Position numbers and translations under genes: made by a program
DNA from: an uncultured Moraxella sp.
GTDB taxonomy: Bacteria; Pseudomonadota; Gammaproteobacteria; Pseudomonadales; Moraxellaceae
Direction: 5' to 3'
DNA: 64,000 bases
NCBI RefSeq assembly: GCF_945873075.1
Contig: NZ_CAMCBS010000005.1
Coordinates: 1 to 64,000, forward strand
The notes under the pieces: model-generated
What the model was told of the DNA's origin: nothing
Database searches by the model: none
The model's input: only the letters and a program-made list of their open reading frames with translations
In this document: positions 2,431 through 6,512 of the stretch, piece by piece
Layout of the letters: each line of letters begins with the position of its first letter
Position numbering within the stretch: position 1 is the first letter of the stretch

Positions 2431-2910
2431 ATGACGACGATTTATGATTTTACCGCCCAAGACTTGATGGGTAATACTGTGGATTTTACTCAGTTTCGTG
2501 GCAAAGTGCTACTCATTGTCAATACCGCAAGCGAATGTGGCTTTACCCCGCAGTTTGCAGGCTTACAAGCCTTGCACGAACGCTATCATACCGAAGGGCT
2601 TGTGGTGATTGGCTTTCCGTGCAATCAATTTGGCAAACAAGAACCCAATGACGGCTCTGCCATCGGTGAATTTTGTCAAAGAAATTATGGCGTAGAATTT
2701 TTGATGATGCAAAAAATCGATGTCAATGGCGAGCACGCCCACCCGATTTATACTTGGCTAAAAGAGCAACAAGGCGGCCTGCTGACCGATGGCATCAAGT
2801 GGAATTTCACCAAATTTCTCATCGCTCGTGATGGCAAAGTCATCGATCGCTACACCCCAATGACCAAGCCTGAGAGCCTGACTGCTGATATCAAGACAGC
2901 TTTGGCATAA
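2431..2910 (+). CDS. Glutathione peroxidase family protein (BtuE/GPx type)
   Basis: A 159-residue thiol peroxidase of the thioredoxin fold that reduces hydrogen peroxide or organic hydroperoxides. The catalytic tetrad is visible: peroxidatic Cys36 in NTASECGFTPQ (cysteine where animal enzymes have selenocysteine), Gln66 in FPCNQFG, and Trp124 and Asn125 in KWNFTKFL. Cys82 is placed like the resolving cysteine of the non-animal members that use thioredoxin, so the natural reductant may be thioredoxin rather than glutathione. It lies just downstream of msrB on the same strand. No signal peptide is visible, so the protein should be cytoplasmic. Confidence 0.93.
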   Translation: MTTIYDFTAQDLMGNTVDFTQFRGKVLLIVNTASECGFTPQFAGLQALHERYHTEGLVVIGFPCNQFGKQEPNDGSAIGEFCQRNYGVEFLMMQKIDVNGEHAHPIYTWLKEQQGGLLTDGIKWNFTKFLIARDGKVIDRYTPMTKPESLTADIKTALA

Positions 2911-3047
2911 TCTGCGTGATTGTCTTTATGTGATTGCGTTTGCGTGATAATCTTGATAAATTCCGTGTTGCGTTTGATAATAAGTTGTTAATTTTCAATA
3001 AGTTATAAACTTTATCACAAAATTATCAAATTTTTGCCAAAAAATGT

Positions 3048-3075
3048 TTGACACCTGTGTAAATTTCTATATAAT
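3048..3075 (+). promoter_or_regulatory. Strong promoter for the tRNA-Val/tRNA-Asp transcript
   Basis: TTGACA at 3048-3053 and TATAAT at 3070-3075 are both perfect consensus hexamers, with a 16-base spacer. The next features downstream are the two tRNA genes. A hairpin (TTTTCCA 3160-3166, TGGAAAA 3172-3178) just before tRNA-Val may be part of precursor processing. Confidence 0.8.
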
Positions 3076-3187
3076 ACGCACCACAACGAACGAACACAGC
3101 AACATAATCTAGCGTGTACGGTTCAAAACTTAAAATGTGATACCTTGACACAGTATCAGTTTTCCAAATGATGGAAAAGACATTTTA

Positions 3188-3263
3188 GGGTGGTTAGCTC
3201 AGTTGGTAGAGCATCTGCCTTACAAGCAGAGGGTCAGCGGTTCGATCCCGTTACCACCCACCA
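3188..3263 (+). tRNA. tRNA-Val (TAC)
   Basis: A complete cloverleaf: acceptor stem GGGTGGT with ACCACCC, D-loop TTAGCTCAGTTGGTAGAGC, anticodon stem-loop CTGCCTTACAAGCAG with anticodon TAC, T-arm containing GGTTCGATCC, discriminator A and an encoded CCA. It reads GUA valine codons. Confidence 0.97.
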
Positions 3264-3267
3264 CTAT

Positions 3268-3344
3268 GCAGCGGTAGTTCAGTTGGTTAGAATACCGGCC
3301 TGTCACGCCGGGGGTCGCGGGTTCGAGCCCCGTCCGCTGCGCCA
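3268..3344 (+). tRNA. tRNA-Asp (GTC)
   Basis: A complete cloverleaf: acceptor stem GCAGCGG with CCGCTGC, D-loop TAGTTCAGTTGGTTAGAATA, anticodon stem-loop CCGGCCTGTCACGCCGG with anticodon GTC, T-arm GCGGGTTCGAGCCCCGT, discriminator G and an encoded CCA. It lies four bases after tRNA-Val and is surely co-transcribed with it. Confidence 0.97.
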
Positions 3345-3379
3345 CTTTTAGTGTAGCTTTTATAAGCTTTTCACTTTCT

Positions 3380-3416
3380 CCCCAAGTCTCCCCTGGCTTG
3401 GGGATTTTTTCTTTTT
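3380..3416 (+). terminator. Intrinsic terminator of the tRNA operon
   Basis: Inverted repeat CCCCAAG (3380-3386) and CTTGGGG (3397-3403) followed by an almost unbroken run of Ts. From here to 3558 the sequence is AT-rich and I see no other gene or clear signal. Confidence 0.85.
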
Positions 3417-3558: not shown

Positions 3559-4131
3559 TTGGTATTAGCTTTATTTGGCATCACACTATGTTTATTTGCA
3601 AATGTTAGCTTTGCAGCAGATTGGACGCCTGTTTTTAAAACATGGGAAACCCATGCGGAAGATTCAGATATTTTAAGATCTGTTACTTACAACCCTAATG
3701 TTGGTTGGGATGATTTGCATGGCTGGACTACTGCGGGACGACCAAACCCCGATTCAAATGACTTGGTTTTAATTAAGAAATTTGATACAAGCCAACTTTT
3801 GCATATTCCTGAACCTTATCACAGTGACATCATTTTAATAGAATATGAATCCGTTTATGATACACATATAGGCAATATGAAAGACACTATATACCTTCAG
3901 AACGCCACCCTTTATGGACTGCCCATCACCAAAATCGTTGATTATGGTGCTGAAGGTGAGGAAATGCATACGACAATCTATTTTGATAAAATGTCAAACG
4001 CTCAATATAGAAGTTTAAAAAAGATTAAACTTAAGCACAGACATGATGACTGGTGCGATGGTGGCCATCAAGCAGAATTTAGAAAAGATAAATACAATCA
4101 AGTCACCTTGTTTTTCTCTCAAGGCTGTTGA
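3559..4131 (+). CDS. Putative secreted protein of unknown function, 5' end uncertain
   Basis: The reading frame encodes about 190 residues. It opens with a hydrophobic segment ending in ANVSFAAD, which looks like the core and cleavage region of a signal peptide, but the usual positively charged start of such a peptide is missing. There is no ATG or GTG: in-frame stops lie at 3532 and 3535, and the only start options are a TTG at 3559 or rarer codons, none with a Shine-Dalgarno. The 5' end may have been lost or frame-shifted, making this a possible pseudogene. The mature part is rich in aromatic and charged residues, with two cysteines near the C-terminus (WCDGGHQ and a final SQGC) that could form a disulfide. 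I do not recognise the family. GC content is lower than in neighbouring housekeeping genes. Confidence 0.5.
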   Translation: MVLALFGITLCLFANVSFAADWTPVFKTWETHAEDSDILRSVTYNPNVGWDDLHGWTTAGRPNPDSNDLVLIKKFDTSQLLHIPEPYHSDIILIEYESVYDTHIGNMKDTIYLQNATLYGLPITKIVDYGAEGEEMHTTIYFDKMSNAQYRSLKKIKLKHRHDDWCDGGHQAEFRKDKYNQVTLFFSQGC

Positions 4132-4190
4132 TATCTTTAAAATAATTTTCAATTTTGCTATCTTACTTATTAATTGAGTTTTAGTTGGTA

Positions 4191-4241
4191 AAGTTGTTTC
4201 AAATTTATGCTAAAATACACCCAATTTTTAATTGAAAATTT
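4191..4241 (+). repeat. 51-bp direct repeat, copy 1 (carries extended -10 promoter)
   Basis: This copy matches 6462-6512 over 51 bases with about five mismatches, including 27 consecutive identical bases. It contains TGC followed by TAAAAT (4208-4216), an extended -10 element that would start transcription into the structured RNA region just downstream. Confidence 0.85.
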
Positions 4242-4571
4242 GGGGCTGGTGCAGATAACACGCCTGCCGAAATACCTGTTTTAGTCGCTCTATAAGCGAA
4301 TTGGCTCATGCTTTAGTAACCTACCGTTGCTGGGTTGTGCTCTGAATTACTTTGTGATACATTAAGTTTTGTTTGAGGCTCCCATATCAGTACGCACGGA
4401 ATAGGACTGATATGCATAGGACTGGTTTTGCCATCATCCTTGCCAGTTCCATCTTTAAATATGTTTTATCAGATGCTCCCACGCCAGTACGAGAAAGTAT
4501 AGGATTGGTCGTGCATAGGTCAGAAGTGGTCGCACCCCTGCTCTGATTCATCATCTGGTTTATATTTAAAG
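4240..4571 (+). ncRNA. Candidate structured noncoding RNA with two tandem related units
   Basis: This stretch has no credible open reading frame but much pairing. Unit 1 (about 4374-4459) and unit 2 (about 4470-4557) share the order CTCCCA, stem A, GCATAGG, stem B. Stem A of unit 1 pairs 4383-4391 with 4406-4414; stem A of unit 2 pairs 4480-4488 with 4504-4513 (one bulge). Between the units three base pairs have changed on both sides, preserving pairing. Stem B is GGACTGG with CCAGT (unit 1) or TCAGA with TCTGA (unit 2). Unit 2 is closed by CAGATG (4470-4475) with CATCTG (4552-4557) and by a perfect ten-pair stem, 4453-4462 with 4562-4571. A 5' domain (4240-4373) holds smaller hairpins, for example TCGCT/AGCGA at 4285-4299. 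The extended -10 in direct-repeat copy 1 lies just upstream. I recognise no known RNA family; it could be a free sRNA or the leader of the next gene. Confidence 0.5.
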
Positions 4572-4964
4572 CCTTCTCACTTCTTAGACAACCATTGTCA
4601 AAAAAAACAAACTAACACCTCCTCGCTTTAACATTAAACTTATTTTAACAATATTGACAATTTTATATAACGAAAATGCTTTGATTTACTTTTAGCTCAT
4701 ACAACAAGATAAAATTTTATATTATAACTCTATTAAACTTCTCGTCATTCTATGCTAAACTTATATATTGCCAGGATACTAAACTTTGCGAACTATTTGC
4801 ATAATTGTCATCAGGATGGATATCGCAAATAAGTATAAATTATCCTAAATACAACCATATCCCAATCCTCAATACGATGAACATACATCTTATTGAATAG
4901 ATATTAACATGCCAGCAGAGACTTAGTTACGCAATTAGTGCAATGCCATCAATAAGGAATCAAT
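4572..4964. other. AT-rich intergenic stretch without recognised gene
   Basis: Very AT-rich sequence with no plausible coding frame. It holds a TTGACA at about 4662 without a good matching -10, and an extended -10-like TGCTAAACT at 4753-4761 that could serve the following membrane-protein gene. Nothing else is identifiable. Confidence 0.4.
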
Positions 4965-6422
4965 GTGCAAGTTCGAGGACTATTTACACTATCTATACTT
5001 TATTTTATTGCTGAAATTTATCTTAATTTTAGTATATACCAGCAAATGTCGTTTTTAAGCACTCCTGTACATTTAGAAATATTAGAACATCAAGGTAAAA
5101 TCATTGCTGGCATAGGTCTAGCACTGTTATTAACACGAATGTACATTGCTTTTCGCATAAAAAATTTACAAGCAAGGCATATTGCTCAGTCCACAATTAA
5201 TGCAAAGACTCCTTTTTTGAAATTACTTTGTGTTTGCATTCCAATCAGTTTTTTTGTACAAAACCAAGTTATCAACTATATCATAAATCAAGCAACTCCT
5301 GAAAACAAAAATACAGCAATGCTAATTACGGCGGTACATTCCACATTTGTGCCACACTACACTGGTGACAATGCTATCAATGTCCATTCAGAAATCAAAC
5401 CATCATTGTTACAAAAAACCTTTTTTCCTTTTGTGGATATTGGCAATGATGATTTTTCATACCAAAACTTTAGCCAAAATGCCTCTGCTTATAAAAAAGG
5501 TGCAGTATCATGTGATAAGTCGAATTACTATGCCACTCCAGGTATTCAACGGGCATTTCAACCGTTTATCCAATTATCAAAGCAGTCTGATTTTCGTAAA
5601 AATGAGAAATTGCATATTGATCATATTCATGCATTTTACTATTGCCTGTTAAATTCTGAAGAATATTTGCAATATCACAGCAAGCAAGGGAAAAGTGGCA
5701 AACAGATGCTCAAAGATGCGTTTAAAGAGTATCAAAGCGCTAGTCAGAAATTTCAAAAATCCACACGCTATCTCGTAAGTTGGAGACTCGACCGTGCTCA
5801 TCGAGAATGGCGTACTCAGATGGATAACAAATTTAGATTTTCAACAACTATCAAACCAGGCTTGAATTTTAAGCAATTTGTCAACCACCCAGATGTCCGC
5901 AGATATTATTTGAATGAGGCTGGAGATAAAAAAGCTCAATATCCGTTTGATAAAAATTACGATATTATTCATAAGCAACAATACAATACATTAATCTCAA
6001 ATAAAGTTTTGCCCTACTACCAACACTTGAATGGCAAGCGCAATATGACAGCCGATCAGCATATCATAGATGAACATGGAAGACAGGCATATAAGGCAAT
6101 CATAATGCCCATGATTGGGTTTTGGGTATCATTCATTGTCCTCAGTCTAAATATATTAATATTGTTTTATGGTTTCTTAACTCGTTTCAGTGGAACTTTT
6201 ATCGGCGCAATTGAGACATGCGGTTTTTTGCTTTGTATTATCAGTCTATTTGTTTGGAAAATTCCAAAATCTGAACCAAACGAACATCCTAATATATTTA
6301 TGAAATTAACTTATTATCCATCAAGTGTTATCACTCGCTATTATGATGACATTATTCATCAAAACGAAAAGGATGTATATTGGAACCAATCCGAAAGTGA
6401 TCGATATCACCAATACAAATAA
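4965..6422 (+). CDS. Membrane protein of unknown function with large soluble loop
   Basis: A 485-residue protein with a GTG start at 4965, supported by AAGGA six bases upstream; the ATG two bases earlier is out of frame. By eye there are five hydrophobic segments: about 6-24, 45-63, 85-100, 380-404 and 412-431. About 280 residues between the third and fourth form one large hydrophilic domain rich in Tyr, Gln, Lys and His. I see no known catalytic motif. Codon use and base composition are strikingly AT-rich compared with rimO next door, which suggests acquisition by transfer. It lies between the two copies of the 51-bp direct repeat, downstream of the candidate RNA, so the RNA and this gene may be one cargo unit. 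Function unknown; the call rests on a long open frame, good ribosome binding site and plausible membrane topology. Confidence 0.75.
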   Translation: MQVRGLFTLSILYFIAEIYLNFSIYQQMSFLSTPVHLEILEHQGKIIAGIGLALLLTRMYIAFRIKNLQARHIAQSTINAKTPFLKLLCVCIPISFFVQNQVINYIINQATPENKNTAMLITAVHSTFVPHYTGDNAINVHSEIKPSLLQKTFFPFVDIGNDDFSYQNFSQNASAYKKGAVSCDKSNYYATPGIQRAFQPFIQLSKQSDFRKNEKLHIDHIHAFYYCLLNSEEYLQYHSKQGKSGKQMLKDAFKEYQSASQKFQKSTRYLVSWRLDRAHREWRTQMDNKFRFSTTIKPGLNFKQFVNHPDVRRYYLNEAGDKKAQYPFDKNYDIIHKQQYNTLISNKVLPYYQHLNGKRNMTADQHIIDEHGRQAYKAIIMPMIGFWVSFIVLSLNILILFYGFLTRFSGTFIGAIETCGFLLCIISLFVWKIPKSEPNEHPNIFMKLTYYPSSVITRYYDDIIHQNEKDVYWNQSESDRYHQYK

Positions 6423-6461: not shown

Positions 6462-6512
6462 AAGTTGCCACCAATTTATGCTAAAATACACCCAATTTTT
6501 CATTGAAAATTT
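6462..6512 (+). repeat. 51-bp direct repeat, copy 2 (rimO promoter region)
   Basis: Second copy of the sequence at 4191-4241. The 27-base identical core carries the extended -10; the adjoining AATTTTT/AAAATT stretch is nearly palindromic. Here it lies directly upstream of rimO and is probably the original location. Confidence 0.85.
6479..6487 (+). promoter_or_regulatory. Extended -10 promoter element of rimO
   Basis: TGC followed by TAAAAT. No good -35 is present, as is common for extended -10 promoters. The same TATGCTAAAAT string occurs before pyrH and, as TATGCTATAAT, before nuoA. Confidence 0.5.

Follow-up and report, generated by a model that had tools for sequence, protein, structure and literature searches.

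A covarying three-way-junction RNA, present as two tandem units in a Moraxella genome, is encoded antisense to phage PBECR1-type nuclease domains and is a candidate RNA antitoxin

Two tandem RNA units in the Moraxella window

The window analyzed here is the whole stretch of 64,000 nucleotides from the start of contig NZ_CAMCBS010000005.1 of an uncultured Moraxella sp., and near its beginning two RNA units lie side by side on the plus strand (Table 1). Each unit is a three-way junction of about 91 nt, composed in order of an eight-pair closing stem (P1), the stretch CUCC(C), a nine-pair stem (P3), the stretch GCRUAG, a seven-pair stem (P2), a short linker and the 3′ arm of the closing stem (P1′). 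An earlier note, made from the letters of the sequence, had proposed two tandem units of selected structured RNA at this place, and the covariance model and the homologues with covarying stems described below bear this out. Its stem A coincides with P3 to the base in both units, including the single bulge of unit 2, and its stem B is the P2 of the family; the three two-sided changes that it had seen between the two copies of stem A (T-A to C-G, A-T to G-C and T-A to C-G) also hold. The closing stem P1, which is conserved in each unit, was absent from that description. Taken together, 47 of the 48 model pairs in the two units are standard.

The note had further described a perfect ten-pair outer stem, which does exist outside the closing stems of both units. 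Its 5′ arm and the closing stem of unit 1 share positions 4453-4459, so this segment has two possible partners, the 5′ arm of unit 1 P1 or the 4562-4571 side, as had been suggested. Folded by itself, unit 1 is predicted to form all eight P1 pairs, and for 4371-4571 or longer segments the ten-pair stem is chosen, at about 4 kcal/mol better than a fold with P1 forced; the closing stem of unit 2 stays intact in this joint predicted fold. Single-sequence folding energy was unremarkable (z 0.02 for 4222-4590 and z -1.30 for 4374-4583) and was dropped as evidence of structure since the z values are not significant. The proof of structure in the window units, drawn from related sequences, is comparative and not energetic.

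A 51-bp stretch upstream of the units recurs at 6462-6512, just upstream of a RimO-like gene, and the two copies flank a segment that holds the RNA units and the gene of an unknown 485-aa protein (4965-6422). The statement that the units belong to no known RNA family was confirmed, as no Rfam 15 family reached its gathering threshold there: the scan of the window returned two tRNAs only at threshold, and the scan of 4100-4980 together with six relatives gave below-gathering matches only, none of them credible.

Table 1. Positions of the RNA units, their stems and neighboring features in the window
Feature	Position	Strand	Evidence and remarks
51-bp stretch, 90% identical to 6462-6512	4191..4241	+	E 5.9e-13; candidate second upstream promoter
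Weak promoter-like site TTGTGC-17-TACATT	4335..4363	+	start near first base of unit 1 P1; about the usual distance
Remnant of nuclease-side coding sequence	4368..4462	-	tblastn pieces against the L003 protein; two different frames
RNA unit 1, 90 nt three-way junction	4371..4460	+	R1 65.0 bits, E 7.8e-16; 24/24 model pairs standard
Unit 1 P1 arms	4371..4378 with 4453..4460	+	three G.U pairs; 3′ arm shared with ten-pair stem
Unit 1 P3 (stem A) arms	4383..4391 with 4406..4414	+	model R1, pair check
Unit 1 P2 (stem B) arms	4420..4426 with 4442..4448	+	model R1, pair check
Ten-pair stem arms	4453..4462 with 4562..4571	+	competes with unit 1 P1; no part of the family fold
RNA unit 2, 92 nt three-way junction	4468..4559	+	R1 62.9 bits, E 3e-15; 23/24 model pairs standard
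Unit 2 P1 arms	4468..4475 with 4552..4559	+	one U.G; model R1
Unit 2 P3 (stem A) arms	4480..4488 with 4504..4513, one bulge	+	model R1, pair check
Unit 2 P2 (stem B) arms	4519..4525 with 4541..4547	+	model R1, pair check

Identification of the RNA family

DNA similarity revealed one clear homologue of the units among 96 related genomes (L003, 85% identity over 75 bp). It lies on the opposite strand and falls within a phage-type ORF of 4081 aa that has the Pfam domains PBECR1 (PF18809) and LPD39, and it was this homologue that led to the PBECR1 nuclease. A second genome of the same genus (L033) aligns with both window units at 62% over 237 bp, and the aligned stretch directly follows the PBECR1 domain of that locus. 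A profile of PBECR1 domains (A1) was then employed on viral sequences and yielded 80 loci, the best 80 of 93 confirmed. Among these best 80 of 93 the downstream sequence takes 35 distinct forms, and in most of the 80 it is nearly the same as in Acinetobacter phage ABMM1, so they represent fewer than 80 independent cases.

The covariance model R1 was built from a training set (A4) of 17 of 37 units, with both window units (W1 and W2) excluded. Units for which the search for P1 failed or was doubtful were left outside A4 for that reason (L070b, L133b, L134a/b, L135b, L138b and L057); the others outside it, besides W1 and W2, are L003, L042a, L052, L065, L067, L070a, L128, L133a, L136, L137a and L140. 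The two window units, which are outside the training set, match the model with all three stems, at the scores given in Table 1. Searched against all 64 kb on both strands, R1 found exactly units 1 and 2 (E about 1e-15) and had no other match with E up to 10, and in other genomes the search returned homologues with covarying stems. Second units of a divergent subtype score 24-31 bits in L070, L133, L135 and L138 (at 1983-2067), and L134 holds a further one near 2004-2051.

Among titles and abstract openings in a limited collection of literature, no published description of a PBECR1-linked RNA was found, and PMC5512222 was the one paper of that collection to name PBECR1. By sequence, this is an RNA family for which we found no description, supported by strong covariation and provided with a definite candidate protein partner.

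Association with PBECR1-type nuclease domains

R1 matches all 80 of the viral PBECR1 loci (the best 80 of 93), in every case antisense to the nuclease domain and directly downstream of it. Viral contigs were also scanned blind to the nuclease, with a pattern of conserved unpaired bases that was itself drawn from nuclease-linked units; this gave 31 sites in 28 stretches, and R1 confirmed the RNA in 28 of the 28. Of these sites, 22 of the 31 have a PBECR1 profile match (E ≤0.01) on the strand opposite the RNA, at a distance of 41-194 nt. Four of the other nine adjoin a missed PBECR1 domain or a diverged relative of it: L193 has a PBECR1 above the Pfam cut-off, and in L170, L175 and L191 a diverged domain of BECR-like type was recognized by eye at the corresponding place (Pfam PBECR1 E 0.03, none and 0.032, respectively). 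At L173 the sequence piece ends at the locus, and at L177, L180, L188 and L194 no nuclease was found beside the RNA. With the Pfam family itself, PBECR1 is above the curated cut-off in L003, L060, L072 and L193, below it in L170, L176, L186 and L191 (E 0.0022-0.032), and gives no match in L175.

The position of the RNA relative to the nuclease ORF takes two forms. On the nuclease strand, the RNA segment begins 0-10 nt past the stop codon in L034, L050, L052 and L054, and it lies within the nuclease ORF at the other 24 of the 28 loci checked, 21 of which have an ORF that continues for more than 1 kb beyond the RNA. In L039, one ORF has two PBECR1-like domains, the second recognized by eye, and an RNA follows each. 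The RNA was found in none of three tested Helicobacter phage loci with distant PBECR-like domains (28-31% identity), and two A. baumannii plasmid records carry it. The annotation of L054 (Acinetobacter phage vB_AbaM_ABMM1) has a ‘hypothetical protein’ ORF over the stretch that contains the RNA (2790-3380) and leaves the RNA itself unannotated.

In the available text of Iyer et al. (2017, PMC5512222), PBECR domains are predicted to be RNases and belong to phage proteins that probably enter the host by injection, so the RNase activity of PBECR1 is a published prediction; the PBECR1 domain considered here belongs to this linked nuclease family of phage polyvalent proteins (PF18809). AF modeling of the PBECR1 domain was confident (pLDDT 94.2, pTM 0.85). 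The AlphaFold model had no significant match in the PDB, the best being a designed protein with E 0.035, and RelE/HigB-type toxins appear among its sub-threshold fold matches only. A sequence search of solved structures likewise returned nothing significant, and PADLOC and NCBIfam gave no defence match. By genomic position the RNA is tied to a predicted BECR-type nuclease of phages, whose gene runs on the other strand. The earlier note had missed this link, and also the absence of the nuclease from the window genome.

Covariation and coding constraint

In the P3 cores of 37 units, 78.9% of alignment cells are paired, compared with 24-40% in slid controls, and none of 500 shuffles reaches this value. 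The 17 full-length units of A4, without those of the window, have 86.5% of cells paired against 36-43% in slid controls; two-sided changes occur in 22 of the 24 pairs, all three stems covary, and the covariation score of 0.827 compares with at most 0.199 in slid controls and is reached by 0 of 500 shuffles. In an enlarged alignment of 40 distinct rows, window units included (45 matches from 37 searched sources), the score was 0.863, a value that leans towards the model since the alignment was fitted to R1. The most conserved unpaired stretches are CUCC(C), UAGG and GCRUAG, and parts of the P3 loop are conserved too. A pseudoknot between the P3 and P2 loops was considered and found no support, since their complementarity does not exceed that obtained with shuffled partners (P 0.84).

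Most of the loci checked have the unit inside an ORF. In a set of 14 such units, 285 of 336 pairs are kept, compared with 213 ± 6.9 (maximum 235) under synonymous-codon shuffles, although L033b and L138a taken individually are unremarkable. The shuffles stay below the observed pairs, so coding constraint does not explain the pairing. That the stems are an artefact of coding constraint or of palindrome-templated DNA mutation, with no RNA function, is scarcely credible: the 24 of 28 in-ORF loci would suit it, but it has against it this control, covariation in three separate stems, the strand polarity and aligned promoter-like sites described below, and the existence of units outside ORFs. A palindromic mobile element was also considered as a source of the units and dropped because of their fixed place beside the nuclease.

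Strand and promoter-like sites

An A.C mismatch read on one strand is a G.U pair on the other, and the P3 core was used to determine which strand the structure belongs to. Read on the nuclease strand, the 37 units have 36 A.C and 3 G.T mismatches; when units are clustered at 90% identity, the inner seven pairs of the 32 that remain give counts of 24 and 3, where shuffling expects 41 and 28. The polarity of P1 is weaker, with 13 G.U and 7 A.C in 31 of the 37 units when scored without favouring a strand. This polarity places the RNA antisense to the nuclease, which in the window is the plus strand, and the promoter-like sites of the relatives agree with the plus strand, which the earlier note had also read. 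On these two grounds the nuclease sense strand was rejected as the functional one.

In 37 units, the RNA strand ahead of P1 was scored for sigma-70-like sites against local control windows. By eye, 25 of these units were classed as first in line when read in the antisense direction and 12 as downstream of another; the first units are partly non-independent, with related pairs (L065/L067, for example) among them. Of the 25 first units, 19 have a promoter-like site that ranks within the top 2% of local controls and 6 fall outside this range, versus 1 of the 12 downstream units within it. In 11 of the 19 sites, 14 nt separate the end of the -10 element from the final base of the P1 5′ arm, so that the predicted start falls at about P1. 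Examples on the RNA strand are TTGAAA-17-TATTAT in L052 and TTGAAC-17-TACAAT in L050. In an A. baumannii prophage, the RNA antisense to and downstream of the PBECR1 gene would have its predicted 5′ end at AAAGCCCG of P1. These sites strongly suggest that the RNA has its own promoters in phages.

In the pairs with a second unit of the divergent subtype (L070, L133, L134, L135 and L138), it is this second unit that bears the promoter-like site. By eye, the 3′ arm of P1 in L052 runs into a T stretch, which the terminator scan did not list. In the window, the site upstream of unit 1 is not significant, since 20.7% of local controls score as high, and neither is the best site of unit 2, with 10.7% of controls as high. 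The 51-bp stretch at 4191-4241 is a possible second promoter upstream of the units, judged by its sequence.

A proposed antidote of PBECR1-type nucleases

As its gene opposes the end of the gene of a predicted RNA-cutting toxin, the RNA is probably the antidote of that toxin. We hypothesize, with somewhat better than balanced confidence, that it is a convergent RNA antitoxin of a new family that blocks the PBECR1-type predicted endoribonuclease. In phages and prophages, the RNA gene converges on the 3′ end of the sequence for the PBECR1-type predicted endoribonuclease domain and is antisense to it; this domain often belongs to a giant polyvalent protein of virion type. The RNA gene sits where other phage toxins have the gene of an immunity protein. 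The folded RNA may bind and block the nuclease in the phage-producing cell, and the injected nuclease would be active in a naive cell that does not have the RNA. Where the RNA is transcribed from inside the nuclease ORF, as it often appears to be, one DNA segment could serve as both protein linker and RNA antidote. Stand-alone copies, such as those of this Moraxella and of some phages, may be kept as protection against such nucleases. The broader proposal, on which we are evenly divided, is that this would be an unrecognized kind of toxin immunity, in which the producer cell is shielded from a virion-borne RNase by an RNA of the antisense strand and bacteria and some phages keep stand-alone copies.

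The conserved fold and unpaired bases, the tracking of the nuclease through divergence and the stand-alone copies fit an RNA that binds the nuclease. Inhibition would be the best fit to the orphan copies and to the need to protect the producing cell. The same data do not separate activating from inhibiting binding, and close nuclease linkage with conserved unpaired positions would also be expected of a cofactor, specificity guide or preferred substrate that forms a ribonucleoprotein with the nuclease without inhibiting it. We consider this unlikely, since RNAs kept without a nuclease (the window, L177, L188 and L194) are more readily understood as antidotes.

Decidedly unlikely, in our view, is a cis-antisense RNA of the type I kind, which would pair with the nuclease mRNA and trigger its decay with no protein binding. 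Type I antitoxin RNAs act by such pairing, either blocking translation of the toxin or destabilizing its message. The cis-encoded antisense position is shared with type I toxin-antitoxin RNAs, as are promoter-like sites of its own, and by position the RNA is perfectly complementary to the nuclease transcript. It lies, however, at or after the 3′ end of the nuclease domain: in L034, L050, L052 and L054 it overlaps post-stop sequence only, and in 21 of 24 in-ORF loci the reading frame extends beyond it by more than 1 kb, so no ribosome-binding site is covered. A fold of about 91 nt with unpaired CUCCC, UAGG and GCRUAG, conserved in diverged phages, exceeds the needs of pairing, and such a strongly conserved fold and core suggest a protein partner; RNAs without a nuclease target found in cis also exist.

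The unpaired CUCCC could instead pair in trans with Shine-Dalgarno regions of host or phage mRNAs, as C-rich seeds of this kind are used by other sRNAs, and CUCC(C) is indeed among the most conserved unpaired positions. We regard a trans-acting sRNA as quite improbable, because it leaves the close tracking of PBECR1-type nucleases unexplained, and the CUCCC sits in the junction and shares its conservation with GCRUAG and parts of the P3 loop.

The proposed antidote resembles type III toxin-antitoxin systems (ToxIN, CptIN and TenpIN) in that a small structured RNA, often in tandem, would neutralize an endoribonuclease by binding it. In type III systems the endoribonuclease also processes the RNA that inhibits it. 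In the available text of PMC5086642, the antitoxin RNA repeats of type III systems lie upstream of the toxin in the same operon with a Rho-independent terminator between them, fold as pseudoknots and have ToxN-like toxins as partners. In contrast, the RNA described here is antisense to and downstream of the domain in 80 of 80 loci (the best 80 of 93), has promoter-like sites of its own and forms a three-way junction in which the two hairpin loops gave no sign of a pseudoknot, and its candidate partner is a BECR-type toxin domain, often in a giant phage protein. The domain is PBECR1, and no ToxN-type Pfam match is listed at E up to 1. Since both gene order and toxin family differ from those of ToxN, CptN and TenpN systems, the RNA was not filed as type III.

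Polymorphic toxins usually have an immunity ORF immediately downstream, according to the available text of PMC5576092, and the phage polymorphic (MuF) toxins offer the closest positional likeness, with a presumed antidote encoded immediately downstream of a phage toxin domain; the candidate antidote here differs in being an antisense RNA gene, often overlapping the toxin ORF, and not a small protein gene. The available text of PMC5512222 does not mention an RNA partner of PBECR, and noncoding RNA, RNA structure and immunity protein are absent as terms from its main text.

If the RNA is an antidote, it suggests how a phage can produce a large virion protein that includes a toxic RNase domain while leaving the factory cell unharmed, and RNA antitoxins would extend to a toxin fold and a gene order that the available text of PMC5086642 does not describe for type III. 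It would also give a simple handle on what PBECR1 nucleases do. The family is, in addition, a case of one DNA segment whose two strands carry different products, a protein-coding sequence and a folded RNA under selection. Orphan RNA copies would provide bacteria or phages with a new kind of immunity.

Stand-alone copies and the state of the Moraxella locus

To this family belong several RNAs that have no intact nuclease alongside, namely those of the window and of L145, L149, L177, L180, L188 and L194. R1 was searched in 299 Moraxellaceae genomes, 13 of which had matches (E up to 0.1), nine at 49 bits or more and four at 21-24 bits. PBECR1 is present in six of the nine genomes with a strong match, and the strong matches without an intact nuclease are in the window genome (two units), G016 and G008. 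Among 369 class-wide genomes, six had matches (E up to 0.01), the window genome included; one of these, G556, has both an R1 match and PBECR1. The window genome, 93.6% complete, has no PBECR1 match. The presence of two RNA units in a genome with no nuclease match points to protection of the host against nuclease-bearing phages or to a recent relic.

On the minus strand of the window, the coding remnant consists of frame-shifted pieces, which correspond to the peptide found after PBECR1 in relatives. The reading of the units as merely decayed minus-strand coding remnants was rejected, since P3 covaries in intact genes and in non-coding copies alike; as judged from these sequences it is true in part and not the whole story. 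Whether the two window units have themselves become functionless relics of a lost phage gene is a separate question, compatible with each of the other readings, and we place this slightly on the less probable side of balance. It would agree with the lack of a nuclease match in the genome, the frame-shifted remnants, the non-significant promoter-like sites, the joint predicted fold that disfavours unit 1 P1 and the visible decay of the G008 unit beside a deleted nuclease. Against it stand the 47 of 48 standard model pairs and a drift test of unit 1 with its closest in-gene relative, L042a, in which 0 of 23 pairs are broken where drift predicts 3.1 (P 0.02). This is suggestive, and not proof, that pairing in unit 1 has been kept beyond drift. 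If the units are transcribed in the window strain, the proposed antidote could protect this host.

The other stand-alone copies differ in their state. In G008 (L149, contig C23, 1208-1590), a prophage-like PBECR1 gene is internally deleted to a 98-aa ORF and is followed by an RNA unit of 49.6 bits with several broken pairs. The phage copies L177, L188 and L194 have an identical sequence before CUCCC, GATACTGG. Weak matches at L150-L153 and L160-L161 (21-26 bits), with no recognized nuclease nearby, were treated as chance and not as members of the family. Outside Moraxellaceae, L157 (G393:C217, 37.3 bits) and L159 (G643:C15, 32.4 bits), where no nuclease was recognized, are possible further orphans by their sequence scores. 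G002 has a pattern match with two mismatches (L045). In G016 (L145, contig C3, 1501-2206), the orphan RNA scores 63.3 bits and abuts a CRISPR array of 36-nt repeats; Iyer et al. speculate, in the available text of PMC5512222, that some PBECR nucleases attack CRISPR RNAs. The first repeat of this array is shortened to 23 nt at the edge of the RNA unit.
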